Of a stretch of 35,457 nt of DNA, positions 24,001 to 35,457 are shown piece by piece. The position numbers and the translations under genes were made by a program. The first letter of the stretch is position 1, and each line of letters starts with the position of its first letter. The notes beneath the pieces were generated by a model. That model worked only from the letters and a program-made list of their open reading frames with translations. It made no database searches and had not been told where the DNA came from. Origin of the DNA: a virus; IMG/VR virus record IMGVR_UViG_3300032285_003627, positions 1 to 35,457 of that record. The stretch is one strand, 5' to 3'.

Positions 24001-27000
24001 CCAGTTTTTAATCTAATAGATTGTGAAGAAAAATTGAAGGGATCTTTATATCCATACGGTCCATATATTGGATTACCATCTTTTGCCCATCCAATTATTT
24101 TAGAGTGAAATGTATTTGGGTCTGGATCATTAAATTCTATACCTTCTCTGTTTGAATAATAATCATTTACACCATATGTTAATGCTGTTTTTTCTTTATT
24201 TTCTAAATAAAATTCGCCAGGATATCTAAAATGATCATTAACTGTTAATGATCTTATAGTTGGAATTAAAACAACTCCTTGTCCAACTGATGATACAGTT
24301 ATAGTTGTATTATTATCATATCCAATACCAGAATTTAAAACTATAACCGAATCTATTAATCCATCAACTACAACCGCTCTTAATTTACAACCTATCCCAC
24401 TACCAATTACTACTAAATCTATAGATTTATCATAATTTGATCCTTTATTTTGAACTTGAACTGATATTATTTTTCCGTCAAAAATTAGGGGTTTTAATTG
24501 TGCCCCAGAACCTTTTTTTATACTTATCAAAGGTTTAATATTTAAATTAAGTGCAGTAGATCCATAATCAGATCCTGGATCATACAAATATGCACCAGTA
24601 ACTTTTCCTCTAACTATTGGTGTTAATTGTATAGAAGAACTAATTCCGATGTATTCTGCAATTACCTCAACAGAAATTTTTGGATATGAAAATGTATGGT
24701 ATCCATTTCCAACCGAAGATATGATAGTTGGATTTCTTTTTATGTAATTTAATTTACTAATTGGTGTTTCGTTTTCATTTATTTCTCCACCATCGGATAA
24801 TTGGAAAGAATTATCATTAATTTTTAAAACATAATATTTTTTGTTTGTTGATAATCCAACAATAGGTTCTTGGTCATAAGAATAATTAATTAAATCACCA
24901 TCATTAAAACGATGTTCTTTAAATGTTATAATACTTGTTTGTGTTGATATTCCAGATGGATTAACATTTAAAGATTTGTAAGAATATCCTTTTCCGGGAT
25001 TAACAATCCTAACATAAGATAAAACTTTAATAGGTTCAAATAATCTAAATTTATGAATGCCATAAGTATTAACCGTTGTTATACCGATGGTATTAATTCC
25101 ACTATTTAAATCTGAAGAGGTTGAGAATATTTGAATACTCTTGGGATTAAGAACCTTTGTTAAATAAATTCCACCATTAATTAAATATTGACCACTATCT
25201 AAATTAGAACCAGCAAATGATCCAATACCAATTCCCAAATTTCCATTAGAATTATAAACTATTTTTTGTCCATTGACTAAACCATGTGGTTCTTTAAAAA
25301 TAAAAGAATCATTTACAACATCAACAGATCCCCCAAAATCTAAAGTTTCTCCACTAAAAGGAATTTCTCTATATTGTTTTTTAATAATGGGCTCAAAAAC
25401 TGCATTTTTACCATTTCCACCTTTTGCAGAAACAGATATAATTCTTTCAATTCCAAATTGTTGAGGATCAACTAATACTTCTTTGAATTCACCTTCTACT
25501 ATTAAATTTATTTTTGCAGTAGTTCCAATCCCAGTATTTGGAGAAGTAATTTGAACTTGGGGAGGATTGATTACATCATAATCAAAACCAGGGTTTGAAA
25601 CATCAATTCTTTCTAGTGGTCCATAATAAACTTTATCAGTCGATTTATAATTGATAATATCTACACCATTAATTAATGTTCCGATTATACCATGCTCTGT
25701 TTCTACTTGCTTTTCATCCGAATTAAAATCTTGATTTAAAGAAATTCTTTTGAGAGAATTTGATGGATTTATAATTTCTGATGCATGTTGAATAAGAACA
25801 AATTTATGCTGTCCAACTTGATTATTTTTATCAAATCTTAAAAAATCTTTTACTGGTAAAAAAGAAACAGCAGAATATAATCTTATTTTATTTTTTTGTG
25901 GTAAAACTTCAACATAAAATTCTGAATTATTTTGCAATCCATTTATGGGTGAAGATGTGGTATAAAAATACTTAACTACATCTCCAGTTAAAAATGGAAC
26001 TTCATTATCAAAAGATAATATAGTATACTTACCACCTAAACTGCCATCAAAAAATTCATTTGCATCTTTAGAATTGGTTATAGTTTTTGAAGATTGTTTA
26101 ATATCTAAAGATATTTTTCTTGATGGTAAAGAATTTGAGGCAACATACATGTCGTCTTTGTACACGTATGTATTTTGAACATTCGATAATATATTATTAT
26201 ATTTTAATGGTATAATAGAACTAGATGCATAATTATATTTTCTTCTTATTGCTATTTTTTGTTGTGGTAAAATACCAGATATTGGAGTATCTAAAGTTAT
26301 TTTATTATTTAAAATAGAATTAACAACAACATCTTTTAAAACTACCATTTCGGTATCTTTTAATAAGATGTCAACAATATCATTTGTTTTTAAACTAGTA
26401 GGATGAGGTTCTTCATAAGTGTCTATTACTGGACTTCCTACAGAAAAATATTGAATATCATAACTAGTTCTAACATTATAAATGAAAGAATTAAAAGCAT
26501 ATTCTTTTATAGTTTTATTTTGAACATCAAATCTAATATCTTGACCAAATTCTCCCAAGTTAACTATATTATTTGGTTTTAATAAATTAAAATTTTCTAT
26601 TCCTTCAACATCATGTAATGATCCAATAACAAGAAATTCTATTTTTTTAGAAGTATCTCCATTTTCATATCCATATACTACATAATCTTTAAAATATAAA
26701 TCTTTTCCAGAATCTATTGATTTTAAAACTCCAGTACATCCGTAAAGTTGATTAACACTTTTGCTCTGATATGTAATTTCTTGTCCATCACATACAAATA
26801 CTCCTGAATTTTTAAATCCTACAGTTGAATCAACGGTAATTGTTGATGCTCCTGCTTTAACAAAATCAGTAATCTTGGTTTTTGGAGTAATTACAAAATT
26901 ACCTTCAATTAAATCATCATCACCATATCCATAAAATAAACCAATTTTATAAACTGTTTTATTATTTTTTGTTGATATATCTACTTTTGATATTGGACCT

Positions 27001-27815: not shown

Positions 27816-27816
27816 A

Positions 27817-29697
27817 TTACCTCGTTATTTTACCGTTTGAATAACTTGATGTTACTGGAAAATCAACTCCAGAAATTTGTTCGCCAGAAACAATAGTATC
27901 TCTTAGCATATTTATGTTATTTGAACTAGTGTTAACATCAAAAATAACATATAAATCTTTTAAACCTATAATATCATTAGATTCTGGATATGCTTGAACT
28001 TCTATTACACCATTATTTAAATCTGTTGATGTTATATTAATTGTATTAATTAATATTTCTCCTGTTTTATAATTAACAGTTCCGATTGATTTTTTAACTA
28101 TTTGATAAGTCTTTAAATCTTCTAATGGTTTAACTATAGTTAAATCTCCAATATCGTTGGTTGTAGCAACATCAACAAAGAAGCATGTCCCAGTTTCACC
28201 TAAAATAGTAAATCCAGTACTTTTAATATTATATTTTCCAATTTCTTTATGAAATTGATTTCCAAAACACAATTCATATTGTGCAAAATTATTTAAAACG
28301 CAATTTAAGTTGCGTCTCATTTTAACTTTAGTAATGTTAGATGTTACGGATGAGTCAATATTATCAATTAATTGAACAACTTTACTATATCTAAATCTTC
28401 CTGCTATTTTTGTAGAATTTATAGATTTTGCATAAGATTCTAAAGATGTCAATACTTTTTCTTTTAATACAGAAGAATTTAAAATTCTATTTGGATTATA
28501 GTAAATAGAACTATCAATTTCAACATATAGAACTTTAAGATCCATTATGTGATGGTTTATTCCTATTACAGAATATTTTTGTATTTTTTTCAAAATATCA
28601 CTTTTTGTAAAATCTGATAATTTATATGAATCTTTTGGTTTAATACTTATAAAAACATTACCATATTGAGGTGGATTCATAACTTCACCACCTATAACAG
28701 TTACTGCTTCAGCTTCTGGATAGATATACTTAATTATAGATTCATAATCAACCGAAGTAACTGCTCTATATTGAGAAGAGTATAATCTTGGAGCAAAATA
28801 TTTAATAGAATCGATAGATTCTAAATCATTACCTCCAGTAGCTGAAGAAACTGTTGTTATTGAAATTGGTGATATAGGAGTTTTAATTTGATCTAGATTG
28901 TTTGTTAAAATTCCAGAAAAAGAAAATGAAGATGGACCATTTCCATTTTTTCCATCAGTAATTATATAACTAACATCTACTGTCGATCCTCCTTCTAATT
29001 TTTTTCCTAAAATGCCATCTCCAAATATAATTTGATATCTGTTATCCTCTATTTCTTGTATTAAATAAATCTCAGAAGAACTATTAAGTTCCGTAATATT
29101 ATCAATCATATTATATTGAATACCATTTACTTTGACTACAATAGTACTGGTATCAATATTTGCATTATTTAAAATAAATTTAGAATTTGATGTAGAAATA
29201 TCTGTAAATTGTTGAGTTACTAAATTTCCTTGATAAATTTCTACATTTGTAAAAGAAGCTATTGCTGAATCTGCATTAACTGTAGTAATTGCATTTTCTG
29301 GTATAGAAAATGCATATGAGCTGTTATCTGTTGGAGCAATACAAACTAAACCAGATTTGAGTATGAGTTGAGTTGGTGCAGTAACTGGAACTCCTAAATT
29401 GACGTCAAATGATATTACTGCTTTTGCACATCTTCTTGATCTAGGAACATAACCTACGTTTCTTGCTAATGAAACGACATTTTCTCTTATAGTTGCCGAA
29501 TCTAAAAAAGATTCATTTGCAACCATATTTGCATTAAATGCAGTAATATAAGTATTATATGCTAAAATATCTATTAAAACGGAAAAATTAGATCCTTCGA
29601 AGTCAAAATCCGTAAAATTAGAATTTGCTCTAAGATAATCTTTTATTGATGTTTTGATTTCATCGAAATCTAAATTAGCAAATCTGGTAAAAGGCAT
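27817..29697 (-). CDS. 6: Baseplate wedge protein gp6
   Basis: 626 aa, near T4 gp6 (660 aa). The N-terminal signature is clear: FANLDFDEIKTSIKDYLRAN, FEGSNFSVLIDILAYNTYI, ANESFLDSATIRENVVSLA and NVGYVPRSR. Further motifs include IIFGDGILGKKLEGG and ATGGNDLESIDSIKYFAPR, typical of gp6 and the wider phage baseplate J family. gp6 dimers form the inner ring that links wedges around the hub. It starts 1 nt after gp25, the T4 partner it binds, and is followed at once by the giant wedge gene. Confidence 0.92.
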   Translation of the reverse strand: MPFTRFANLDFDEIKTSIKDYLRANSNFTDFDFEGSNFSVLIDILAYNTYITAFNANMVANESFLDSATIRENVVSLARNVGYVPRSRRCAKAVISFDVNLGVPVTAPTQLILKSGLVCIAPTDNSSYAFSIPENAITTVNADSAIASFTNVEIYQGNLVTQQFTDISTSNSKFILNNANIDTSTIVVKVNGIQYNMIDNITELNSSSEIYLIQEIEDNRYQIIFGDGILGKKLEGGSTVDVSYIITDGKNGNGPSSFSFSGILTNNLDQIKTPISPISITTVSSATGGNDLESIDSIKYFAPRLYSSQYRAVTSVDYESIIKYIYPEAEAVTVIGGEVMNPPQYGNVFISIKPKDSYKLSDFTKSDILKKIQKYSVIGINHHIMDLKVLYVEIDSSIYYNPNRILNSSVLKEKVLTSLESYAKSINSTKIAGRFRYSKVVQLIDNIDSSVTSNITKVKMRRNLNCVLNNFAQYELCFGNQFHKEIGKYNIKSTGFTILGETGTCFFVDVATTNDIGDLTIVKPLEDLKTYQIVKKSIGTVNYKTGEILINTINITSTDLNNGVIEVQAYPESNDIIGLKDLYVIFDVNTSSNNINMLRDTIVSGEQISGVDFPVTSSYSNGKITR

Positions 29698-29698
29698 T

Positions 29699-30100
29699 TT
29701 ATCTAATTGCCTCTAAAATGTAGGTGAATATTTGTTTTGGTGTGTTTTCACCAATAATGTTAAAATAAACAATAATTTCAAAAGAATTTGAATCTGGATA
29801 TGGTGTAACATCAACTTCAACATCAGTAACACGCGATTCAAAGTTGGATATTGCAATTTCAACATAACTTTTTAATATTGAAGCAGTACCAAAATCTATA
29901 AACTCAAATAAAGTAGGTCTTACCTCAGATCCAAATAAAGGATTAAAAAATCTTTCAGTTGGAATTGTTTGAATAATATTTTTGATTGATTTTTTAATTG
30001 CAATTTCATTAGTTAAAACGAGAATATCTTTGGTGACAGGATGCATGTCAAAAGACAAACTAATATCCTTAAATCCTTTTGATATTCTCGTTGTTGCCAT
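29699..30100 (-). CDS. 25: Baseplate wedge protein gp25
   Basis: 133 aa, matching T4 gp25 (132 aa) and the GPW/gp25 family found in contractile tails and type VI secretion (TssE). The family pattern is visible: a central stretch NIIQTIPTERFFNPLFGSEV with the conserved Glu-Arg and Asn-Pro-Phe-Gly-type loop, followed by SNFESRVTDVEVDV near the C-terminus. gp25 binds gp6 and the sheath-proximal core bundle and helps trigger sheath polymerisation. First gene after a late promoter, 27 nt downstream of TATAAATA. No strong Shine-Dalgarno sequence is evident. Confidence 0.92.
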   Translation of the reverse strand: MATTRISKGFKDISLSFDMHPVTKDILVLTNEIAIKKSIKNIIQTIPTERFFNPLFGSEVRPTLFEFIDFGTASILKSYVEIAISNFESRVTDVEVDVTPYPDSNSFEIIVYFNIIGENTPKQIFTYILEAIR

Positions 30101-30127
30101 TAACGTATTATGTTATATACTTTTTTT

Positions 30128-30135
30128 TATTTATA
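30128..30135 (-). promoter_or_regulatory. T4-type late promoter TATAAATA (gp25 unit)
   Basis: Exact TATAAATA on the minus strand, beginning right after the stop codon of the 81-aa gene (30136-30138) and followed by an A-rich stretch. It lies 27 nt before the gp25 ATG at 30100 and would drive gp25, gp6 and the 4239-aa gene. Confidence 0.72.
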
Positions 30136-30381
30136 TTAGGACCAGGGACGTCCGTAAATTGGTTCAGTTCCATAATCCCAGTCATCATAATCAACATCAT
30201 TTCTTATTGATTTATGAGATACTTCAGATAGTTTGAATTTATTCTTTTCAATTTCATCATGCATGATTTCCTGAATTACTTTTTTCTTTTCTGGAAAGGA
30301 AATGTAATCAGTAACCAATTTTGTAGTGCCCCACATTTGGTGCATGTAATTTTGATCTCTATCAACTGGTAAATTTGACAT
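30136..30381 (-). CDS. Small acidic cyanophage protein upstream of gp25
   Basis: 81 aa, soluble and charged. MHQMWGTTKLVTDYISFPEK and IMHDEIEKNKFKLSEVSHKS are followed by an acidic, aromatic tail (DVDYDDWDYGTEPIYGRPW). I do not recognise a domain; short proteins like this occur at the head of baseplate operons in cyanophages. It has a good ribosome-binding site: AGGAG lies 6 nt before the ATG. It is separated from speD by about 68 nt containing a stem-loop. It may belong to the accessory unit upstream rather than the late unit that starts just after it. Confidence 0.75.
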   Translation of the reverse strand: MSNLPVDRDQNYMHQMWGTTKLVTDYISFPEKKKVIQEIMHDEIEKNKFKLSEVSHKSIRNDVDYDDWDYGTEPIYGRPWS

Positions 30382-30389
30382 TTTAGCTC

Positions 30390-30408
30390 CTGTTTTTTGT
30401 AAAAACAG
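30390..30408 (-). other. AT-rich stem-loop next to the ribosome-binding site of the 81-aa gene
   Basis: Perfect 8-bp inverted repeat CTGTTTTT / AAAAACAG with a 3-nt loop, between speD and the 81-aa gene. Its 3' arm on the minus strand runs into the AGGAG ribosome-binding site. Read on the plus strand it is followed by a run of seven T, so it could stop antisense transcripts. Role uncertain. Confidence 0.35.
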
Positions 30409-30449
30409 AACTTTTTTTGGAAGGAGGTTGCTATCTCCCCTACCAGTAT

Positions 30450-30776
30450 TTAACGATATAGGTATCTTAAGTTATAGTTGTCAGAATTTAAGTATTTTAA
30501 CAGTTCAAGTGCAATTAATTTTGGATTTCCTTCACCACAAGTGTAAACATCTATTGCCAAACATCCATTTTCTGGCCAAGTATGACAAGAAACGTGACTT
30601 TCTGCAAGAGCAATTACAATCGTACATCCTTGTGGGGTAAAACAATGTGTAAAAATGTTCAAAATTGTCATTTTTGCACGATCAATACCCCTTTCCATCG
30701 CCTCTTGAAGAGATATTGCATCATTTAAAAGATTATGTTCTACATCATAAACCTCTAAAAGAAGGTGATTGCCCAT
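30450..30776 (-). CDS. speD: S-adenosylmethionine decarboxylase SpeD (phage auxiliary metabolic gene)
   Basis: 108 aa from the ATG at 30776. A longer frame from a TTG at 30791 exists, but MGNHLLLEVYDVEH is the family start. SpeD decarboxylates SAM to supply the aminopropyl donor for spermidine synthesis. Bacterial-type signature: AESHVSCHTWPE contains the Glu59-Ser60 self-cleavage site, where Ser60 becomes the pyruvoyl group, and His65. Cys80 in DVYTCGEG is the expected proton-donor cysteine. All key residues are present, so the enzyme is probably active. speD is a known auxiliary metabolic gene of T4-like cyanophages. It sits in the accessory block with small proteins; no speE or other polyamine gene is visible here. 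Confidence 0.93.
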   Translation of the reverse strand: MGNHLLLEVYDVEHNLLNDAISLQEAMERGIDRAKMTILNIFTHCFTPQGCTIVIALAESHVSCHTWPENGCLAIDVYTCGEGNPKLIALELLKYLNSDNYNLRYLYR

Positions 30777-30816
30777 CGAAAACTGTTCCAATACACCAGA
30801 ATCCCAAAAAATCTAT

Positions 30817-31026
30817 TTATTTATTAAAATCAGAGATGTTTTTACGAGAAAAGGTGCGATTTTTTTGAATTCTGATGTCACTATTTCTAAAAGTCCAACA
30901 AATTCCTCCATCATCGAGAAAAACGACCCATTCTAGATCATGTTCTTGAGATCTATCGATTAAAAAAAATGCCCAACCATTACCTTTAGGAGTAACGACT
31001 GGGATTGTAGGATTTAATTGAATCAT
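30817..31026 (-). CDS. Conserved small cyanophage protein (IQLNPTIPV type)
   Basis: 69 aa. The N-terminal IQLNPTIPVVTPKGNGWAFF and the central EWVVFLDDGGICWTFRN resemble a short protein I associate with many T4-like cyanophages; function unknown. Probably a compact beta fold, rich in Trp and Phe, without a membrane segment. Its ATG overlaps the stop of the preceding 40-aa gene (ATGA), a sign of coupled translation. The C-terminus (QKNRTFSRKNISDFNK) is basic. Confidence 0.82.
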   Translation of the reverse strand: MIQLNPTIPVVTPKGNGWAFFLIDRSQEHDLEWVVFLDDGGICWTFRNSDIRIQKNRTFSRKNISDFNK

Positions 31027-31145
31027 TTTTTCTTTCTAGCATTCGATGCTCTTCTTTGAGCATCACTACGACATTGTCCAGTTGCTTTTCTTTTATCACC
31101 ATTACCAAATGTAGGATTCTTTTTTGGTTTTTTTGGTGTTGCCAT
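31023..31145 (-). CDS. Tiny basic cyanophage protein, 40 aa
   Basis: ATG at 31145, stop overlapping the next ATG. 40 aa and very basic: ATPKKPKKNPTFGNGDKR followed by GQCRSDAQRRASNARKKK. Overlapping start, AT-rich codon use like the neighbours and tight packing (5 nt after the 50-aa gene) support it as a real gene. The composition suggests nucleic-acid or ribosome association, but there is no recognised domain. Confidence 0.72.
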   Translation of the reverse strand: MATPKKPKKNPTFGNGDKRKATGQCRSDAQRRASNARKKK

Positions 31146-31150
31146 CTTAA

Positions 31151-31303
31151 TTACTTACCTTGACCTCTATAAGGTTTACGAGCCTTATTGCGAGACGTAG
31201 CAGAATACTTAGTGCCATCTCCATCACCTTGCCGACTTTTCTTCGGAGGACCAGGAATATAAGAAGTTACCTTATTTAAACCACCTTTTGATTTTGTTGC
31301 CAT
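31151..31303 (-). CDS. Tiny basic cyanophage protein, 50 aa
   Basis: 50 aa with the recognisable cyanophage pattern SKGGLNKVTSYIPGPPKKSR, then TKYSATSRNKARKPYRGQGK. Basic, low in hydrophobic residues and probably unstructured alone. The start at 31303 has a strong ribosome-binding site (GGAGAATAAC before ATG) that lies over the end of the 52-aa gene. Function unknown; DNA-binding or virion packaging is possible from charge only. Confidence 0.78.
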   Translation of the reverse strand: MATKSKGGLNKVTSYIPGPPKKSRQGDGDGTKYSATSRNKARKPYRGQGK

Positions 31304-31304
31304 G

Positions 31305-31463
31305 TTATTCTCCTATAATTTCAGTTTCAATTTCGTCTTGATTTGGAGAATTTGACTGATAAAATTCATCTGCCAAATCCTCCATAATATCGAAGTACTC
31401 TTCTTCTGTAAGATTAGTGTAAATTTTACGTCCCTTACATAGTATATTGTACTTGTCTGCCAT
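31305..31463 (-). CDS. Small acidic protein, 52 aa
   Basis: 52 aa: ADKYNILCKGRKIYTNLTEE, then EYFDIMEDLADEFYQ and an acidic tail (DEIETEIIGE). Looks like a small beta-hairpin followed by one helix. It begins 4 nt after the glycosyltransferase stop and ends 1 nt before the next ATG, so it is part of a continuous operon. No known domain; coding status is supported by packing and composition. Confidence 0.72.
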   Translation of the reverse strand: MADKYNILCKGRKIYTNLTEEEYFDIMEDLADEFYQSNSPNQDEIETEIIGE

Positions 31464-31467
31464 CGTA

Positions 31468-32229
31468 TCAAATCACTCTTGTTTTCTCGTGACCAACTCT
31501 GATGCGAGGATCGCACCAAATTTCAAAACCTGCTTCTTTTGCATCCAGGCAGAATGATACATCTTCTCCACACATGTCTTGAACCTCTCCAGATTCAAAA
31601 ACTTGCATTTTAGGTGCAAACCATGGATACTTCATTTCGGTATGTTCAAATACACCGTGCTTGATTAACAACCAACCAAATCCAGTATAATCAACTGTAA
31701 ATGGTTTACGACGTTTGGAAATGGTTTCGATAGTTTCATGATTCATGACTCCACCATTACCACGGAAATCTTCTTCGTCTAACCAGTGTGCAACAGAAGT
31801 AGTCATACCATCTTCAGTTACATACCAACCTGCGGCAATATCTTTGTCCATAAGAACTAATCTATAGAATAGTTCAGTATTGAAAACGATATCAGAATCA
31901 ATCCAAAGTTGATAATCGTATTTTAACTTACCGTCCCAAGGAAGTTGATCGGGACCTCTAAGTACATTTGCTCCAAGGCACTTGCAACGGGCAAAGTTAA
32001 CCATGGAACTGTAATCTTGTGAAATTTGAATACTTGCTCCGTTCTGAACAAGATCAAAACAGAGTTGAACAAAATTTTTCAAATACGTGTATGAAACTCC
32101 TCTTCCAGGTAAACAGAAAACGATTGATTTACCACGGATAATCTCACGTGCTGCTTCATAATCAAATTCTGCTTCGGGCGAACTTGATGGAATTGGAGTC
32201 TTTGCTTTTACTGTGAATCCTTTAGCCAT
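31468..32229 (-). CDS. GT-A-like glycosyltransferase of T4-like cyanophages
   Basis: 253 aa. The frame shows a nucleotide-sugar transferase pattern: a beta strand SIVFCLPGRGVSYTYLKNF (35-53), a helix with the Arg-containing SSMVNFARCKCLGANVL (74-90), a DXD-type metal site LWIDSDIVF (108-116), an acceptor-side stretch DYTGFGWLLIKHGVF (180-194) and a catalytic-base-like GEDVSFCLDAKEAGFEIW (221-238), ending with a conserved-looking His247. No signal or membrane segment. Homologues are common in cyanophages; the target (DNA base, LPS or virion protein) is unknown. It has its own sigma70 promoter and leads an operon of small genes. Confidence 0.78.
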   Translation of the reverse strand: MAKGFTVKAKTPIPSSSPEAEFDYEAAREIIRGKSIVFCLPGRGVSYTYLKNFVQLCFDLVQNGASIQISQDYSSMVNFARCKCLGANVLRGPDQLPWDGKLKYDYQLWIDSDIVFNTELFYRLVLMDKDIAAGWYVTEDGMTTSVAHWLDEEDFRGNGGVMNHETIETISKRRKPFTVDYTGFGWLLIKHGVFEHTEMKYPWFAPKMQVFESGEVQDMCGEDVSFCLDAKEAGFEIWCDPRIRVGHEKTRVI

Positions 32230-32252
32230 AATAGGAATAATTTTACTTCAGT

Positions 32253-32281
32253 ATTATACAGGATTATCTATAAGAAGTCAA
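32253..32281 (-). promoter_or_regulatory. Sigma70 promoter for the glycosyltransferase operon
   Basis: Minus-strand -35 TTGACT (32276-32281) and -10 TATAAT (32253-32258) with an exact 17-bp spacer. Transcription would begin around 32246, about 17 nt before the ATG at 32229. This is a host-sigma (early or middle) promoter, unlike the late TATAAATA sites of the structural genes. Confidence 0.8.
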
Positions 32282-32287
32282 ATGCAG

Positions 32288-32461
32288 TTATCTTTGACTT
32301 TCACTTAAAACTAATTCATCCCCGTCGATTTTCAATTTTATTTCAGTATCTTCATACCATGAAAATTCATTCACAATACATTCAGGAATAATCACATAAT
32401 ATTCACCACTTACTGGATCAACTTGCAATAGTTGGTAATTTTCCTCAAGATTTTTTTTCAT
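32288..32461 (-). CDS. Small AbrB/MazE-like protein, 57 aa
   Basis: 57 aa. After a short N-terminus, GEYYVIIPECIVNEFSWYED then TEIKLKIDGDELVLSE follows the AbrB/SpoVT swapped-hairpin pattern: strand, proline, helix with Glu, Trp-x-Glu-Asp turn, strand, DGDELVL. Proteins of this fold are dimeric DNA-binding regulators or antitoxins; shortened versions occur in cyanophages. It lies just upstream of the glycosyltransferase promoter, so it could be a local regulator (inference). Start at 32461 with an AT-rich leader and no evident Shine-Dalgarno. No toxin partner is visible. Confidence 0.72.
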   Translation of the reverse strand: MKKNLEENYQLLQVDPVSGEYYVIIPECIVNEFSWYEDTEIKLKIDGDELVLSESQR

Positions 32462-32481
32462 TTATTAATTTACATTTCGTT

Positions 32482-32604
32482 TTATATAGTAAATTTAAAA
32501 ATTATAATCGACTTATTTTGAGAATTTTTTATGGGAAAAATTTTTTCATTTTGAATGTAATATAAGTCTTGCTTGGGTAACACTTTATAGCTTAGGGGAT
32601 CCAT
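32482..32604 (-). pseudogene. ORF open across the composition junction, probable 3' end of a cut phage gene
   Basis: From an ATG at 32604, 40 codons run to TAA at 32482: DPLSYKVLPKQDLYYIQNEK, then IFPIKNSQNKSIIIFKFTI. Everything after the first few codons has the Lys/Ile/Asn-rich composition of the phage part and ends 20 nt before the 57-aa gene, a normal gap here. The ATG lies on the GC-rich side of the junction, next to GGATCC (32597-32602), and an in-frame TAA sits two codons upstream of it. I read it as the C-terminal remnant of a phage gene whose 5' part is missing. It could also be chance. Confidence 0.35.
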
Positions 32605-32610
32605 CGGTTT
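32591..32610. other. Junction between AT-rich phage DNA and GC-rich DNA
   Basis: Up to about 32,595 the sequence is strongly AT-rich and coded like a T4-like cyanophage. From about 32,605 it is GC-rich with different codon use, promoter type and gene style. The change happens within about 20 bp around a GGATCC at 32597-32602. No transposase, integrase, tRNA or direct repeat is visible at the boundary. Confidence 0.75.
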
Positions 32611-32677
32611 TTAGCCACACGGCCCCCGCCGCAACGGACCCCGACCCCCATAATACTGCCCCCTGCCACGAACGAAC

Positions 32678-32705: not shown

Positions 32706-32897
32706 TCACTTCACGTCGCCCAGGGCGCTGGCGGTGGTGCTCATGCGGGTGGCGCTGCTGCCTGCTGCTCCGCCATGAGTGCGGACCCTGCTGCTGCCGC
32801 CCTTGATGCGATCTGCCCAACGGAGGGCGGAGGCGCCATGAGCAACGGGCAGGCGGGTGATCGTGAACTCGGCGCCGTTGATGGTGGTGGTGGTCAT
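32706..32897 (-). CDS. Small protein of the GC-rich array, 63 aa
   Basis: ATG at 32897, 25 nt after a TACAAT -10 element. A longer frame would run back through the promoter and is rejected. Sequence TTTTINGAEFTITRLPVAHG, then ASALRWADRIKGGSSRVRTH; the C-terminus is Ala/Ser/Thr-rich. The N-terminal part looks like one beta-hairpin plus a helix. No domain recognised. Its GC-rich codon use differs from the phage genes to the left. Last gene of the array before the junction, followed by a strong stem-loop. Confidence 0.65.
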   Translation of the reverse strand: MTTTTINGAEFTITRLPVAHGASALRWADRIKGGSSRVRTHGGAAGSSATRMSTTASALGDVK

Positions 32898-32922
32898 CGG
32901 GTGCGTTGTGGTTTGCTCTGGA

Positions 32923-32928
32923 ATTGTA
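32923..32928 (-). promoter_or_regulatory. -10 element TACAAT of the 63-aa gene
   Basis: Minus-strand CCGACTACAATTC, shared almost letter for letter with the promoter at 33230-33235. 25 nt separate it from the ATG. No convincing -35. Confidence 0.6.
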
Positions 32929-32947
32929 GTCGGTCGGGTGGCAGGCG

Positions 32948-33205
32948 TCAACCCACCAGGGCGGCAACCAGGCGATCACGTTTGCGGATCGCGTTGGGGT
33001 AGATGAACCACTCTGCCCGTTTGCCGTTGCTGAGGCGGATCGCGTCGATGATGCCCTGCTTCTCCATGTCAACCATCACGGCGTGGATGGTGCCCTTATG
33101 GCGGCGGGGGTCCATGCCCAGGGAGCGAACCAGGTCGGAGCAGGTCATGGGTCCGTTCTGAATCAGAGCGGAGCGAACGGCAGCGCGGATGATGGTGGTG
33201 AGCAT
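32948..33205 (-). CDS. Small winged-helix-like protein, 85 aa
   Basis: 85 aa from the ATG at 33205, 24 nt after TACAAT; the longer open frame upstream passes through the promoter and is not used. TTIIRAAVRSALIQNGPMTC, then SDLVRSLGMDPRRHKGTIHAV, MVDMEKQGIIDAIRLSNGKR and EWFIYPNA read as helix, helix, recognition helix, then a wing: a winged-helix fold (MarR/ArsR-like size, but shorter). It is the only gene in the array with a DNA-binding look, so it might regulate the repeated promoters (inference). Stop at 32948, in the loop of a weak GGTGG/CCACC stem. Confidence 0.72.
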   Translation of the reverse strand: MLTTIIRAAVRSALIQNGPMTCSDLVRSLGMDPRRHKGTIHAVMVDMEKQGIIDAIRLSNGKRAEWFIYPNAIRKRDRLVAALVG

Positions 33206-33229
33206 CGGTTCAGGTGGCGAACTGAGAGA

Positions 33230-33235
33230 ATTGTA
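33230..33235 (-). promoter_or_regulatory. -10 element TACAAT of the 85-aa gene
   Basis: Minus-strand CCGACTACAATTCTCTCAG; 24 nt to the ATG at 33205. A weak stem (G-run 33243-33247, C-run 33259-33262) lies just upstream. Confidence 0.6.
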
Positions 33236-33254
33236 GTCGGTCGGGGGCGGATGG

Positions 33255-33431
33255 TCAACCCCAGGCGAAGTTGTCCTCCAGGTACTGGCGGCGGCGGTTG
33301 CGGGTGCGGATCTCATCCAGGATCCGATCGTAGAGGGCGCCATTCTCATTGGTGATGGGTTGCCCCTCCAGGAACTGGAGTTCCTCCCAGAGAGCGTTGG
33401 TGCTGAGGTCGTGAAAGGCGGTGGCGATCAT
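33255..33431 (-). CDS. Small helical protein, 58 aa
   Basis: ATG at 33431, stop TGA at 33255, 58 aa: MIATAFHDLSTNALWEELQF, LEGQPITNENGALYDRILDE, IRTRNRRRQYLEDNFAWG. Two amphipathic helices joined by a turn, the second ending in an Arg-rich stretch. Below the usual size cut-off, but well supported by its own promoter 25 nt upstream with the shared leader, by codon use like its neighbours, and by exact fit between adjacent genes. Function unknown. Confidence 0.72.
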   Translation of the reverse strand: MIATAFHDLSTNALWEELQFLEGQPITNENGALYDRILDEIRTRNRRRQYLEDNFAWG

Positions 33432-33466
33432 GATGCTTGGGGTTGGTTGCTTGGATACTGTAGCAT
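33429..33466 (-). promoter_or_regulatory. Promoter-leader repeat copy A
   Basis: Minus strand: TGCTACAGT, an extended -10 (TACAGT at 33457-33462), then the leader ATCCAAGCAACC and AACCCCAAGCATC, directly to the ATG at 33431. The 25-nt leader is identical to the copy before 35257. Confidence 0.75.
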
Positions 33467-33469
33467 GGA

Positions 33470-33655
33470 TCAGGCGGCAAGCGCCGAATCCATGCAGATC
33501 TCCCGATCCTCAATCAGCACGTAGTCGGTTCCCCGTTGCTTCAGGTGCTCAGCGTATGCCTGGGCGGTGGATTTGCAATCGAACAGGCGGAGGGTGGAGA
33601 AGATCTCCCCTTCATAATTGGCGCCAGCGATCACGGCGTAGACTTTCTGGTTCAT
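33470..33655 (-). CDS. Small protein of the GC-rich array, 61 aa
   Basis: 61 aa from the ATG at 33655, 26 nt after the TACAGT element. NQKVYAVIAGANYEGEIFST, then LRLFDCKSTAQAYAEHLKQR, GTDYVLIEDREICMDSALA. It reads as a beta-alpha-beta unit: strand KVYAVIAG, strand with LRLFDC, helix AQAYAEHLKQ, strand YVLIEDREI. Similar short KVYAVI...GE...STLRLFD proteins seem familiar from cyanobacteria, but I cannot name a family. Stop at 33470, 7 nt before the next promoter repeat. Confidence 0.78.
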   Translation of the reverse strand: MNQKVYAVIAGANYEGEIFSTLRLFDCKSTAQAYAEHLKQRGTDYVLIEDREICMDSALAA

Positions 33656-33668
33656 GGTTCGGGGGTGT

Positions 33669-33691
33669 CGGTTGCTTGGATACTGTAGCAC
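33669..33691 (-). promoter_or_regulatory. Promoter-leader repeat copy B
   Basis: Minus strand GTGCTACAGT (TACAGT at 33682-33687) followed by ATCCAAGCAACC, then a diverged C-rich stretch to the ATG at 33655. A stem (G-run 33697-33702, C-run 33710-33714) lies 9 nt upstream. Confidence 0.75.
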
Positions 33692-33705
33692 GGATCGGGG
33701 GGAGG

Positions 33706-33915
33706 TCAACCCCCACCGTAAACGTAGGAGACCAGACCAGCGGGATGGTCAACCCCTTCGATCACCTTGACTTGAGCGGAGTCGAAGTCGCCACCGCCGC
33801 AGACGCCAAACTCCTCAACAAAGATGGAGCGGGCAGCGTCGCGGGATTCGGCAGCGATCACCGCCATGCCTGGGGTGTAATCGTAGAGCACGTCGTTCAG
33901 GATGTAGAGGTTCAT
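33706..33915 (-). CDS. Small protein of the GC-rich array, 69 aa
   Basis: 69 aa from the ATG at 33915: MNLYILNDVLYDYTPGMAVI, AAESRDAARSIFVEEFGVCG, GGDFDSAQVKVIEGVDHPAG. It looks like a beta-alpha-beta fold with a helix ESRDAARSIFVEEF and a tail of Gly and Tyr. No domain recognised. Its promoter has TACAAT 22 nt upstream and a partly matching leader (CAGCAACCAACCC). The stop codon lies inside a G-run/C-run stem. Confidence 0.75.
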   Translation of the reverse strand: MNLYILNDVLYDYTPGMAVIAAESRDAARSIFVEEFGVCGGGDFDSAQVKVIEGVDHPAGLVSYVYGGG

Positions 33916-33937
33916 CGGGTTGGTTGCTGTTGAGAGT

Positions 33938-33943
33938 ATTGTA
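33938..33943 (-). promoter_or_regulatory. -10 element TACAAT of the 69-aa gene (repeat variant)
   Basis: Minus strand CCTGCTACAATAC, an extended -10 with TG; the leader keeps AGCAACCAACC. 22 nt to the ATG. Only 12 nt separate it from the stop of the preceding gene. Confidence 0.65.
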
Positions 33944-33955
33944 GCAGGTCAGGGG

Positions 33956-34135
33956 TCACCGCCACTCCAGGTAGGGGGTGGGGTTGCCATACTCCCCGAT
34001 CACCATCCCGTTGCAGCGGATCTCAGCGTACCCGTATTCCTCAGAGAGGGAGTAGCAGAGGTCCCAGGCACGGTCCTCATCGGTGGTGGTGTTCTCCCAG
34101 GGAGCAGAGGGGCAGATCACGTCGTAGCGGGTCAT
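33956..34135 (-). CDS. Small acidic protein of the GC-rich array, 59 aa
   Basis: 59 aa from the ATG at 34135: MTRYDVICPSAPWENTTTDE, DRAWDLCYSLSEEYGYAEIR, CNGMVIGEYGNPTPYLEWR. Pattern: strand YDVICP, helix DEDRAWDLCYSLSEEYG, strands AEIRCNG and MVIGEYG. An apparent N-terminal extension MLQYPSNQPSI is just the promoter leader translated and is not used. No domain recognised. Confidence 0.75.
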   Translation of the reverse strand: MTRYDVICPSAPWENTTTDEDRAWDLCYSLSEEYGYAEIRCNGMVIGEYGNPTPYLEWR

Positions 34136-34168
34136 GATGCTTGGTTGGTTGCTTGGATACTGTAGCAC
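34133..34168 (-). promoter_or_regulatory. Promoter-leader repeat copy D
   Basis: Minus strand GTGCTACAGT (TACAGT at 34159-34164), ATCCAAGCAACC, AACCAAGCATC to the ATG at 34135; 23-nt leader, two C shorter than copies A and E. Confidence 0.75.
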
Positions 34169-34171
34169 GGA

Positions 34172-34357
34172 TCAGAAGTGGACTGCCCAGTTCGGATCGG
34201 TCAGGCAATTCACCCAGGCGCACCAGGTGCGGTTGCTGCTCACGCAAAACAGGTCGTTGCCGTCGCGTTGCTCAACCACCACCACGGGGTCGCCTGCCAT
34301 CTGGTTTGCCAGGCGGTTCTTTGCCTTGGCGGAGATGGGGGTCAGGGTCACGGTCAT
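34172..34357 (-). CDS. Small protein of the GC-rich array, 61 aa
   Basis: 61 aa from the ATG at 34357: MTVTLTPISAKAKNRLANQM, AGDPVVVVEQRDGNDLFCVS, SNRTWCAWVNCLTDPNWAVHF. Helix SAKAKNRLANQM, strand PVVVVEQRDG, strand DLFCVSS, then a Trp/Cys-rich end (TWCAWVNC) that resembles small beta-sheet cyanobacterial or phage proteins of unknown function. Promoter TATAGT 24 nt upstream; stop at 34172, 7 nt before the next repeat. Confidence 0.72.
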   Translation of the reverse strand: MTVTLTPISAKAKNRLANQMAGDPVVVVEQRDGNDLFCVSSNRTWCAWVNCLTDPNWAVHF

Positions 34358-34381
34358 CGGTCTGGTGTGAGAGTTGAAAAC

Positions 34382-34387
34382 ACTATA
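34382..34387 (-). promoter_or_regulatory. -10 element TATAGT of the 61-aa gene at 34172
   Basis: Minus strand GCCTCTATAGTGTTTTC; 24 nt to the ATG at 34357. It lacks the shared ATCCAAGCAACC leader. A GC stem ends 10 nt upstream. Confidence 0.6.
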
Positions 34388-34397
34388 GAGGCAAAGG

Positions 34398-34442
34398 GGA
34401 GGGGCGGTGCCCTCCGCTGTGCCACCTAGCGGGTTGGCACAG
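34398..34442 (-). terminator. Two GC-rich stem-loops between the 49-aa and 61-aa genes
   Basis: Stem 1: CTGTGCCA / TGGCACAG, 8 bp perfect (34417-34424 with 34435-34442). Stem 2: GGAGGG / CCCTCC, 6 bp (34398-34403 with 34410-34415), 10 nt before the next -10 element. Both lie after the stop at 34448; no T-run. Confidence 0.5.
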
Positions 34443-34447
34443 TATGC

Positions 34448-34597
34448 TCAGAAGTCGATGGCATCAAGTGTAGAGTCTGCATCGCATTCAGCGCATTCGT
34501 CAACACTATCGCCCAAAACAATAGAGTCAAGAATCTGCAGGATTTGGTTGCCGTTTTTGCCAGTCTTGAGGAGAGAAAGCGCAATTTCAGAAGTCAT
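34448..34597 (-). CDS. Small acidic protein, 49 aa
   Basis: 49 aa from the ATG at 34597 to the stop at 34448: MTSEIALSLLKTGKNGNQIL, QILDSIVLGDSVDECAECDA, DSTLDAIDF. A helical start with GNQILQILDSIV and an acidic, two-Cys C-terminus (CAEC). Below usual size cut-offs but in place between its own TACAAT promoter and a pair of stem-loops, with array-like codon use. Small proteins with this GN-IL-ILDSIV pattern seem familiar from cyanobacteria and their phages; function unknown. Confidence 0.68.
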   Translation of the reverse strand: MTSEIALSLLKTGKNGNQILQILDSIVLGDSVDECAECDADSTLDAIDF

Positions 34598-34608
34598 GGG
34601 ATTTTGGA

Positions 34609-34614
34609 ATTGTA
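34609..34614 (-). promoter_or_regulatory. -10 element TACAAT of the 49-aa gene
   Basis: Minus strand AAACTACAATTCC, only 11 nt before the ATG at 34597, so the mRNA would be nearly leaderless. No shared leader. The 39 nt between it and the 36-aa gene's stop hold nothing recognisable. Confidence 0.5.
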
Positions 34615-34653
34615 GTTTGTTGGCAGTCTTTAAGGCGCTGCCATTCCTGGAAA

Positions 34654-34764
34654 TTAACGAGCGTTTAATGGTTTATGAAGGAGTCTAAAATCCTCCTCAA
34701 TCCAAGAGAAGTACACCCAAACCTTGTCAAGGTAGAAGTTGGGGCGGATGACCTTATGCTTCAT
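34654..34764 (-). CDS. Possible tiny protein, 36 aa, coupled to the gene upstream
   Basis: ATG at 34764, 2 nt after the stop of the 53-aa gene; stop TAA at 34654. KHKVIRPNFYLDKVWVYFSW, then IEEDFRLLHKPLNAR: aromatic and charged, plausible as a real small protein. It is the one gene in the array without its own promoter and seems to form a two-gene operon. Codon use is less GC-rich than the neighbours. Could be non-coding. Confidence 0.5.
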   Translation of the reverse strand: MKHKVIRPNFYLDKVWVYFSWIEEDFRLLHKPLNAR

Positions 34765-34766
34765 GA

Positions 34767-34928
34767 TCAGCGTTGCAGTTGTGCCAGGGATGATGGAGCG
34801 ATGTGAGCAGGAGATCCGCAGGAGAGATAGAACTCTACCATGCGCTCTGCCTCATCCAAACCTTTGAACCATTGAGAGCGCCACTCACAAGAATTGTAAG
34901 GGGTCTGATAGCGAACTTCGAAGCGCAT
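34767..34928 (-). CDS. Small protein of the GC-rich array, 53 aa
   Basis: 53 aa from the ATG at 34928, 23 nt after TACAAT: MRFEVRYQTPYNSCEWRSQW, FKGLDEAERMVEFYLSCGSP, AHIAPSSLAQLQR. Strand FEVRYQT, strand with WRSQWFKG, then helix DEAERMVEFYLSC: a typical small beta-beta-alpha arrangement. A second ATG at 34943 would add MQPIP, but leave only 9 nt after the -10. No domain recognised; the GLDEAERMVEFYLS helix recalls array proteins such as the 61-aa gene at 33470. Confidence 0.72.
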   Translation of the reverse strand: MRFEVRYQTPYNSCEWRSQWFKGLDEAERMVEFYLSCGSPAHIAPSSLAQLQR

Positions 34929-34951
34929 GGGGATGGGTTGCATCTGAAAGA

Positions 34952-34957
34952 ATTGTA
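34952..34957 (-). promoter_or_regulatory. -10 element TACAAT of the 53-aa gene
   Basis: Minus strand CCCGTGCTACAATTC, an extended -10 with TG, 23 nt before the ATG at 34928; the GTGCTACA part matches the repeat copies at 33669, 34133 and 35255. Confidence 0.65.
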
Positions 34958-34966
34958 GCACGGGAA

Positions 34967-34986
34967 GGGGGGCAGCGGTGCCCCCC
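34967..34986 (-). terminator. GC-rich stem-loop between 87-aa gene and the next promoter
   Basis: Perfect 8-bp stem GGGGGGCA / TGCCCCCC with a GCGG loop, 7 nt after the stop at 34994 and 9 nt before the next -10 element. No T-run on the transcribed strand. Confidence 0.55.
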
Positions 34987-34993
34987 GTGAGAT

Positions 34994-35257
34994 TCAGAAG
35001 TCGAACACGTCGCCGTTGAGTTCAACACGGTTGACTTCGGGATCTGCCCACTTTACACCATCGGGAGTCTCCGTGCTGCCGCAATCGTAGAGCATTTCCA
35101 GCAATTCTTCGTAGCAGCAGATTTCACCTTCCTGAATGAGATTGTAGACGCTTTCGTCGTTGTTGATGTACAGAGCAACGTTCCAGGTCTTGTAATTAGT
35201 CCAACCGTTGTAGGTTTCGTCCAGCAGGTTGGTTTGGTAACGGGTTGCGGTTGCCAT
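34994..35257 (-). CDS. NGWTNYKTWNVALYINND family small protein, 87 aa
   Basis: 87 aa from the ATG at 35257. The stretch YNGWTNYKTWNVALYINND (about 16-34) is the signature of a small protein family spread through phages and bacteria; I recall it under DUF numbers (possibly DUF7249) but am not sure. It continues with an acidic helix NLIQEGEICCYEELLEMLYD and a C-terminus ADPEVNRVELNGDVFDF. Function unknown. Promoter copy E lies directly upstream; a strong stem-loop follows the stop. Confidence 0.82.
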   Translation of the reverse strand: MATATRYQTNLLDETYNGWTNYKTWNVALYINNDESVYNLIQEGEICCYEELLEMLYDCGSTETPDGVKWADPEVNRVELNGDVFDF

Positions 35258-35292
35258 GATGCTTGGGGTTGGTTGCTTGGATACTGTAGCAC
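35255..35292 (-). promoter_or_regulatory. Promoter-leader repeat copy E
   Basis: Minus strand CCCGTGCTACAGT (TACAGT at 35283-35288), ATCCAAGCAACC, AACCCCAAGCATC to the ATG at 35257. Leader identical to copy A at 33429-33466. Confidence 0.75.
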
Positions 35293-35298
35293 GGGGAA

Positions 35299-35318
35299 GG
35301 GGGGCAGGAGCGCCCCCC
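35299..35318 (-). terminator. GC-rich stem-loop upstream of promoter copy E
   Basis: Perfect 7-bp stem GGGGGGC / GCCCCCC with a 6-nt loop, 7 nt after the stop of the right-edge gene and 10 nt before the next -10 element. No T-run. Confidence 0.55.
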
Positions 35319-35325
35319 AGGGCGA

Positions 35326-35457
35326 TCAGATGGCGCTGGTGCCCTTGCTCACCCAGAGTGCCAGGCGCATGGTGCCTGCCTTGCTCACCTGCTGGGCGGT
35401 GCGCCCGTGGGCGATGGCAGCAGTTTTCAGGCAGGTGCGCTGGGCATCGGTCATGCC
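35326..35457 (-). CDS. Small basic protein at the right edge, possibly partial
   Basis: Stop TGA at 35326; open to the right edge, with an ATG at 35454 giving 42 aa: MTDAQRTCLKTAAIAHGRTA, QQVSKAGTMRLALWVSKGTSA. Helical and basic. Whether the ATG is the true start cannot be seen, because the promoter would lie beyond the edge. Codon use and the following stem-loop match the rest of the array. Function unknown. Confidence 0.55.
   Translation of the reverse strand, partial: GMTDAQRTCLKTAAIAHGRTAQQVSKAGTMRLALWVSKGTSAI

Follow-up and report, generated by a model that had tools for sequence, protein, structure and literature searches.

Architecture of the micro-gene array

The window, meaning the whole analysed stretch of 35,457 nt, is a 35-kb T4-like cyanophage fragment whose flank matches T4-like cyanophages (S-SRM01, 71% over 79%). 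It carries at one end an array of micro-genes that lies on the minus strand throughout. At ~32.6 kb, the late baseplate module, AT-rich with a GC3 of 0.08-0.27, borders on the GC-rich array (47-68% GC). The step is abrupt (from 26% to 68% GC), and the array genes have GC3 values of 0.47-0.85, far higher than the phage core. The array comprises eleven complete ORFs of 36-87 aa, arranged head to tail and named by their start positions, and a twelfth ORF truncated at the edge of the window (Table 1).

A sigma-70-type -10 hexamer (TACAGT, TACAAT or TATAGT) lies upstream of ten of the complete genes, 34764 being the one without its own. The distance from the end of the hexamer to the ATG is 22-26 nt in nine of the ten and 11 nt in the tenth (34597). 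The sequence TGCTACAGTATCCAAGCAACC occurs exactly four times in the window, always on the array strand, and the leaders of 33431 and 35257 match over all 25 nt past the -10, in a match that runs via TGCTACAGT to the ATG. No AGGA, GGAG, GAGG or AAGG was found within 20 nt of any array start. A preliminary description of this DNA had claimed the eleven genes plus one at the edge, the ten hexamers with these spacings, four leaders with a shared sequence, two leaders identical over 25 nt and the lack of a Shine-Dalgarno; ORF recovery, counting and direct comparison reproduced them. Beyond what it had said, six of the ten promoters have an extended -10, with TGC before the hexamer (TGCTACART).

TGCTACART was observed six times, against 0.014 expected and a maximum of one in 500 dinucleotide shuffles. 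TAYART with an ATG 20-26 nt on was observed ten times versus 0.09 expected, and the shared 21-mer four times versus zero expected. Late promoters (NATAAATA) lie 33-37 nt ahead of three structural genes; no late promoter was found within the array, where all promoters are sigma-70/early in appearance.

Table 1. Features of the array and its boundary.
Feature	Position	Strand	Remark
Edge-cut micro-gene, at least 42 aa	35326..35457	-	L063 homologue, 88% nt identity
G+C-rich stem-loop ahead of promoter, 7 bp	35299..35318	-	-17.2 kcal/mol, z -1.6; also in L063
Extended -10 TGCTACAGT (gene 35257)	35283..35291	-	
25-nt leader ATCCAAGCAACCAACCCCAAGCATC	35258..35282	-	Same as that of gene 33431
Gene 35257, 87 aa, DUF7249 (PF23907)	34994..35257	-	Cassette inserted or deleted relative to L063
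G+C-rich stem-loop, 8 bp	34967..34986	-	-18 kcal/mol, z -2.6
Extended -10 TGCTACAAT (before 34928)	34952..34960	-	
Gene 34928, 53 aa	34767..34928	-	
Gene 34764, 36 aa	34654..34764	-	No own -10; starts 2 nt past preceding stop
-10 TACAAT (gene 34597)	34609..34614	-	ATG 11 nt on
Gene 34597, 49 aa	34448..34597	-	
G+C-rich hairpin ahead of promoter	34390..34423	-	-19.4 kcal/mol, z -1.7
-10 TATAGT (before 34357)	34382..34387	-	
Gene 34357, 61 aa	34172..34357	-	phrog_1653 (unknown function)
Extended -10 TGCTACAGT (before 34135)	34159..34167	-	Leader ATCCAAGCAACCAACCAAGCATC
Gene 34135, 59 aa	33956..34135	-	phrog_17176
Extended -10 TGCTACAAT (before 33915)	33938..33946	-	
Gene 33915, 69 aa	33706..33915	-	
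Extended -10 TGCTACAGT (before 33655)	33682..33690	-	Leader ATCCAAGCAACCGACACCCCCGAACC
Gene 33655, 61 aa	33470..33655	-	phrog_17343
Extended -10 TGCTACAGT (before 33431)	33457..33465	-	
25-nt leader	33432..33456	-	Same as that of gene 35257
Gene 33431, 58 aa	33255..33431	-	L010 has another gene after same upstream gene
-10 TACAAT (before 33205)	33230..33235	-	Leader TCTCTCAGTTCGCC...
Gene 33205, 85 aa	32948..33205	-	Weak winged-helix-like match PF03965, E 0.009, below cut-off
-10 TACAAT (before 32897)	32923..32928	-	
Gene 32897, 63 aa	32706..32897	-	Last in array
Conserved boundary, GC-rich array / AT-rich late module (GGATCCCCTAAGCTATAAAGTGTTAC)	32560..32640	-	

Cassettes in related viruses and their exchange

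The comparison set comprised more than 100 related virus fragments. Related viral contigs yielded 307 distinct cassettes with TGCTACART; in 94% of them, the ATG follows the motif at 18-32 nt, and 69 protein families lie downstream. Within each array, the motif is confined to one strand. The seam consensus covers TGCTACAATnCTCTCA and extends from close to the preceding stop up to the ATG, and in many seams ~2 nt are left between stop and TGC. The -35 is weak, with 4-5 matches to TTGACA in 26% of cassettes versus 10% in shuffles. The leaders are G-poor (15% G), carry SD-like words in 5% of cases and vary in sequence beyond the discriminator; TGCTACAATnCTCTCAG is the commoner leader form. The array occupies the same genomic place in many relatives, and the isolate S-PM2 carries a version of it at 21.4-25.1 kb.

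According to the preliminary description, the one-promoter-per-gene model would fail if the motif were absent elsewhere. Its presence in other viruses removes that objection; the proposed search was positive for related viral contigs and negative for cyanobacterial genomes and plasmids. One degenerate leader pattern, other than the commoner TGCTACAATnCTCTCAG, was submitted against 84,980 species genomes (257 Gb) and hit no cyanobacterial contig; its nine scattered matches were all non-cyanobacterial. The plasmid search returned no match either, and on these two results we rejected the idea that the leader came from a host or a plasmid.

Across cassettes, 23% of the upstream stretches tested fold with z < -2, and this share depends on the stop-to-promoter gap (50% at 21-60 nt, 8% at 0-8 nt), so a stem-loop is not present at every seam. 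Since only about a quarter of these stretches are unusually stable, multi-gene read-through transcripts are possible. The leaders are almost unstructured (mean MFE -1.5 kcal/mol, z +0.4), and a structured RNA in the leader was rejected, as Rfam gave nothing credible.

The comparison of neighbours resulted in 95 distinct swap events (65 + 30) at a gene seam versus 2 inside an ORF. One upstream family precedes 16 different families, another family has 20 different predecessors, and the gene order is reshuffled between relatives. Additionally, eight clean one-cassette indels were found, the best with flanks ~98% identical. In the relative L063, the edge gene is followed directly by the 34928 homologue; in the window, the DUF7249 cassette separates the two. 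The L063 junction keeps the same stem-loop and TGCTACA seam as the window.

For the same downstream gene (at least 85% nt identity) with a different upstream gene, leader identity was 0.80 versus a 0.50 baseline. For the same upstream gene with a different downstream gene, it was 0.60, no higher than among unrelated same-locus cassettes, and therefore homology-driven leader exchange is unsupported by these pairs. Unrelated genes of one locus share leader identity of 0.573 versus 0.513 expected, and 0 of 1000 permutations reached 0.573. Leader type as a lasting family property found no support over long divergence (0.541 versus 0.534 permuted); it holds for recent copies. Sequence comparison shows that promoter, leader and ORF are acquired, dropped and reshuffled as one piece, with breaks between a stop and the next start. 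The earlier proposal that promoter and gene travel as one cassette is borne out by the seam breaks, the leader identity of 0.80 and the clean indels.

Interpretation of the shared leader

We consider it quite probable that this part of a T4-like cyanophage genome is its early hyperplastic region and that the array consists of autonomous cassettes with one gene apiece. A cassette would comprise an optional stem-loop, an extended -10 (TGCTACART), a 20-30 nt A/C-rich leader without a Shine-Dalgarno, a micro-ORF and a stop. The unmodified sigma-70-type RNA polymerase of the host would transcribe each gene early, and an incoming cassette, if so read from its own promoter, would be expressed wherever it is inserted. 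The near-identical leaders might, more tentatively, double as short homologies for recombination. That the promoters are active, that they act early and how the cassettes recombine is what we infer from the sequence. A more far-reaching version, which we regard as rather unlikely, is a dedicated cyanophage gene-exchange zone, in which dozens of GC-rich micro-gene families would pass from phage to phage separately from the AT-rich core. The promoter-leader would serve as both expression signal and recombination seam, and within each genome the leaders would be homogenised to a 'dialect' of that genome; any cassette that arrives could then be expressed early and be swapped out again.

A serious alternative, to which we give somewhat less than an even chance, is that the leader is conserved merely as a good promoter and translation start, takes no part in exchange, and that cassettes move by random illegitimate recombination, with selection retaining those recombinants whose genes are intact. 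Breaks at gene borders only are also expected from such a process. The identity of 0.60 at the same-locus baseline and the ~2 nt between stop and TGC are in line with it, but unrelated genes of one locus share leaders above expectation, and the 25-nt identity past the -10 in the window is not obviously needed for promoter function. It is distinctly less probable that the leaders act as operators or RNA elements in a single regulon, through which a phage or host regulator switches all micro-genes together. Leaders that are nearly invariant before unrelated genes and similar per locus would suit such a coordinated regulon, the other reading offered in the preliminary description; however, the leaders are variable past the discriminator and nearly unfolded, and neither a regulator nor a structured RNA was identified.

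The acquisition of the array as a whole genomic island from a GC-rich picocyanobacterial host appears very improbable: the GC and GC3 of the array would fit, but the leader pattern occurs in no cyanobacterial contig searched, the tested micro-proteins have cyanophage relatives, and gene order is not conserved. Bacterial or plasmid DNA fused to a phage contig by chimeric assembly, as the abrupt GC step might suggest, has a negligible chance and was ruled out because a similar GC junction with a conserved boundary element recurs in many contigs that are independent of one another and also in S-PM2, an isolate; the plasmid and cyanobacterial searches also speak against it.

Comparison with known systems

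The PeSLs of T4-like phages (Arbiol et al. 2010; Comeau et al. 2014) are promoter-early stem-loops, as cited in PMC4503421. The array resembles them in a putative early-type promoter repeated between genes of a T4-like hyperplastic region, in gene swapping at seams and, in part, in the stem-loop at some seams. It differs from that account in being mostly without a stem-loop, in conservation that extends via the leader to the start codon, in its resolution to single micro-genes and in forming a GC-rich island. Of the PeSL hallmarks, we found a variable T4-like region (S-SRM01-type flank; gene content differing between relatives) and seams as exchange points (95 versus 2 breaks; clean indels). 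An early, host sigma-70-like promoter in the seam is predicted from the -10 and its spacing, both of which are highly conserved among the 307 cassettes. By analogy with the PeSL architecture described there, the array may work like PeSL cassettes. Puxty et al. (2015) considered the PeSLs of S-PM2 too sparse for PeSL shuffling, and promoter/stem-loop shuffling was set aside as explanation (PMC4503421); the S-PM2 island at 21.4-25.1 kb is left unconsidered in the available part of that paper.

The intergenic repeats of halovirus HF2, promoter-tested by reporter assay, are a further likeness, although HF2 is an archaeal virus and no single-gene cassette shuffling is described in the accessible portion of the source (PMC8707807). 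The cyanophage 'ORFanage' or hyperplastic regions (S-PM2) are likewise clusters of small ORFans in T4-like cyanophages whose synteny is often lost, but they are described without per-gene promoter-leader cassettes (PMC2984593, PMC4503421). ORFanage genes 017-050 of S-PM2 are packed and overlapping, unlike the micro-gene array. In Cluster K mycobacteriophages, SAS/ESAS also place a short conserved element before the starts of different families in one genome; however, SAS is a GGGATAGGAGCCC element of 13 nt, and about half of the copies have a 17-bp inverted repeat (PMC3203893), whereas the array has an extended -10 and a leader without a Shine-Dalgarno. No GGGATAGGAGCCC-like element was found before the starts: across the cassettes, the leaders are G-poor, SD-like words occur in 5% and the consensus is unrelated.

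Morons of tailed phages are extra genes that bring their own promoter, in many cases also a terminator, and differ from neighbouring genes in base composition; they are mostly isolated insertions in prophages. The array shares the added gene with its own promoter and deviant base composition; it differs in that its genes sit head to tail in a T4-like phage and have a leader in common.

Phage genomes are rich in tiny ORFans. In these arrays, the sequence directly reveals what is gained or lost as a unit, namely one promoter, one leader and one small gene, and the array may enable the virus to go on altering its set of early genes. The same architecture in cultured S-PM2 (host WH7803) makes promoter mapping, cassette deletion and exchange rates testable in the laboratory. 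From the arrays, dozens of micro-protein families that are presumably early can also be listed, and the seams help gene calling where annotation misses or mis-starts genes. For the micro-proteins, Pfam and PHROGs returned hardly anything but unknowns; the product of gene 35257 matched DUF7249 (PF23907) with an E of 2.4e-16 and 61 bits against a curated cut-off of 27. Elsewhere in arrays, a HicA-like family was seen below threshold.

The array in the window

The window, a linear fragment of 35,457 nt, comprises an entire viral contig. Its first 32.5 kb carry structural genes of a T4-like cyanophage, those of the baseplate among them. For positions 27,000-32,600, the freshwater isolate S-SRM01 is the closest phage record, with 71% identity over 79%. 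GC content is 24-39% in the structural part near the junction (GC3 0.08-0.27) and 47-68% in the array part (GC3 0.47-0.85). One uninterrupted ORF of the structural part, 4,239 aa long, probably encodes a large structural protein of the virion, by analogy with the same place in other cyanophages. Another ORF lies between the glycosyltransferase-like gene and gp25, where S-SRM01 has an annotated S-adenosylmethionine decarboxylase.

The preliminary description reported eleven complete minus-strand micro-genes and one at the edge, and every element it described was found in place. Ten have their own -10, with the ATG 22-26 nt on in nine and 11 nt in one. The sequence TGCTACAGTATCCAAGCAACC is present four times, two leaders match each other all the way to the ATG, and the array leaders contain no Shine-Dalgarno words. 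Gene 34764 (micro-genes are named by start coordinate) lacks a promoter and begins 2 nt after the preceding stop. Against dinucleotide shuffles of the array, TGCTACART was seen 6 times with 0.014 expected, and a -10 placed 20-26 nt from an ATG was seen 10 times with 0.09 expected. The TGC of the extended -10 is present at six of the ten -10s; an extended -10 can compensate for a weak -35 in sigma-70 promoters.

Positions of the array, the boundary element and other features
Feature	Record	Position	Strand
4,239-aa ORF	Window	15096-27815	minus
ORF between glycosyltransferase-like gene and gp25	Window	30450-30791	minus
Boundary element	Window	32560-32640	minus
Micro-gene array	Window	about 32.6 kb to end	minus
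Boundary element	L116-L193 (compared loci)		
Micro-gene island	S-PM2, NC_006820 (L274)	21400-25100 (about 21.4-25.1 kb)	
Boundary element	S-PM2, NC_006820 (L274)	about 25.15 kb	

Related cassettes and their genomic place

The preliminary description proposed a search for the motif elsewhere, and the exact 21-mer was found in 10 other viral contigs, while the sister leader TGCTACAATTCTCnCAG occurred in 91 stretches. The motif totaled 277 copies versus 15 for the reversed control, with up to 11 copies in 8 kb, nearly confined to one strand per locus. In the isolate collection, no match to either leader covered 80% of the leader; S-PM2 came closest (27 nt, E 0.01). From all loci, including those retrieved via the neighboring glycosyltransferase-like gene and the DUF7249 micro-protein, 307 distinct cassettes were gathered. 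Their consensus begins with an upstream stop, mostly 2-50 nt ahead, then TGCTACAAT, then (A/T)CTCTCA with its final A at the expected start site, and an A/C-rich stretch up to the ATG. The distance from -10 to ATG was 18-32 nt in 94% of them, with peaks at 22-23 and 26. Single linkage of BLASTP matches grouped the downstream proteins into 69 families.

Thirty-nine loci were examined upstream of the glycosyltransferase-like gene. In most of them GC, at first 26-50%, reaches about 45-66% over the 0.5-1.5 kb nearest that gene. Others show a slight GC step or none and lack TGCTACART; the array is therefore common at this place, not universal. TGCTACART is absent from the corresponding 30 kb of the nearest isolate, S-SRM01. 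In isolate S-CREM1, where two of the tested micro-genes have relatives in this region, the genes are packed, with GC of 36-48% and hardly any per-gene -10. A boundary element around CTAAGCTATAAA(GTGTTAC/CGACCC) is common to the window and most relatives compared. Where the GC-rich array meets the AT-rich late module, this element reads CTAAGCTATAAAGTGTTAC or CTAAGCTATAAACG, and in many cases GTTCGTTCGTG...GCAGT repeats come before it.

Isolate S-PM2 harbors an island of 50-60% GC before gp25, in which the leader TTCAGTTCAAACGAAACGACCC is repeated before unrelated genes, with 32 nt identical in two pairs. The island has -10s of TATAAT, TAGGAT or TAGACT, a comparable boundary element and several stretches that resemble stem-loops. 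Portions match metagenomic arrays at about 70-80%, and gene orders differ. Among 12 isolates surveyed, the full pattern was seen in S-PM2 only, with weaker GC rises in S-RSM4, ACG-2014i and S-CAM3. Puxty et al. 2015 sought PeSLs (promoter-early stem-loops of T4-like phages) in S-PM2, found few and held the mechanism unlikely for genes 017-050 of the ORFanage, a small-ORFan cluster (PMC4503421). The island falls outside these genes and apparently went unremarked before. Some of its genes have accession numbers (YP_0040307xx) later than their neighbors', and gaps remain.

One and the same array is present in contigs L007 and L008, which come from different metagenomes; the cassette seams compared are identical. 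The HicA-like micro-protein family F6 (PF07927, E 1.7e-4, under the Pfam cut-off) forms one cassette in the arrays of L142, L224, L136 and others. L021, L049, L084 and, near 7.7 kb, L007 contain an ORF of about 50 aa that is rich in Asp and Tyr (MYDDYDLDYTY...); its promoter is TGCTACAAT or TGCTATAAT, flanked by an inverted repeat around CTCGACGAG.

Cassette gain, loss and exchange

The suggestion that promoter and gene move together as a cassette was supported by the breaks between related loci. These were counted from DNA identity alone because gene-calling artefacts were to be avoided; a seam event was a pair that matched in the final 135 nt of the upstream side and differed in the initial 135 nt of the downstream side, or vice versa. 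There were 95 distinct seam events (65 + 30) versus 2 breaks 45-90 nt inside an ORF, counted as distinct family combinations, not independent events on a tree, from contigs that are fragments and single-linkage families. A single upstream family stands before 16 different downstream ones, and a single downstream family follows 20 upstream ones. Leader identity was 0.80 with the same downstream gene and a different upstream gene versus 0.50 for unrelated cassettes of other loci; promoter and leader therefore travel with the gene they drive.

Eight clean one-cassette indels were seen. L055 and L061 differ by exactly one additional promoter-leader-ORF unit between flanking genes 98% identical, and another such indel separates L214 from L038. 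In L063, a homologue of the gene cut by the window end (88% nt identity) is followed by a stem-loop and TGCTACA seam and directly by a homologue of gene 34928 (82%); in the window, the DUF7249 cassette sits between the two. In L010, a homologue of gene 33655 (96% identical, last 120 nt) precedes a gene other than the window's, behind the same promoter.

For unrelated genes of one locus, leader similarity was 0.573 versus 0.513 (0 of 1000 permutations of locus labels within families as high), and a shared broad protein family did not raise it (0.541 versus 0.534); as leader pairs are not phylogenetically independent, these figures describe the sample. The leader thus travels with its gene at first, and over longer times leaders resemble their genome. 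Gene conversion between leaders and a common donor pool could both explain this within-genome likeness. The leader may guide recombination as well; selection for intact genes would give identical breakpoints.

Predicted expression and known systems

The late motif NATAAATA lies 33-37 nt before the ATG of three structural genes, and none was found in the array. Since cyanomyoviruses are without the T4 genes that retarget the host polymerase, the unmodified enzyme is presumed to transcribe their early genes (PMC2984593). From these two points, we infer that each micro-gene would be an early gene transcribed from its own predicted promoter. The short, unstructured A/C-rich leader without a Shine-Dalgarno probably supports initiation on an open 5' end. 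Stem-loops (z < -2) were found at 50% of seams with a stop-to-promoter gap of 21-60 nt and 8% of those with 0-8 nt; since they are frequent only at long gaps, read-through is likely, with transcripts probably overlapping.

The array appears to work like the PeSLs of T4-like phages. The PeSL definition includes a stem-loop, which many array seams lack, and the comparison was by description; we therefore set the array beside PeSLs, as a variant of this type of system, and not among them. Looser analogues are the SAS elements that Cluster K mycobacteriophages carry (PMC3203893) and the repeats of halovirus HF2, which bear promoters (PMC8707807). T4-like enterophages, too, have early promoters ahead of novel ORFs (PMC1524935).
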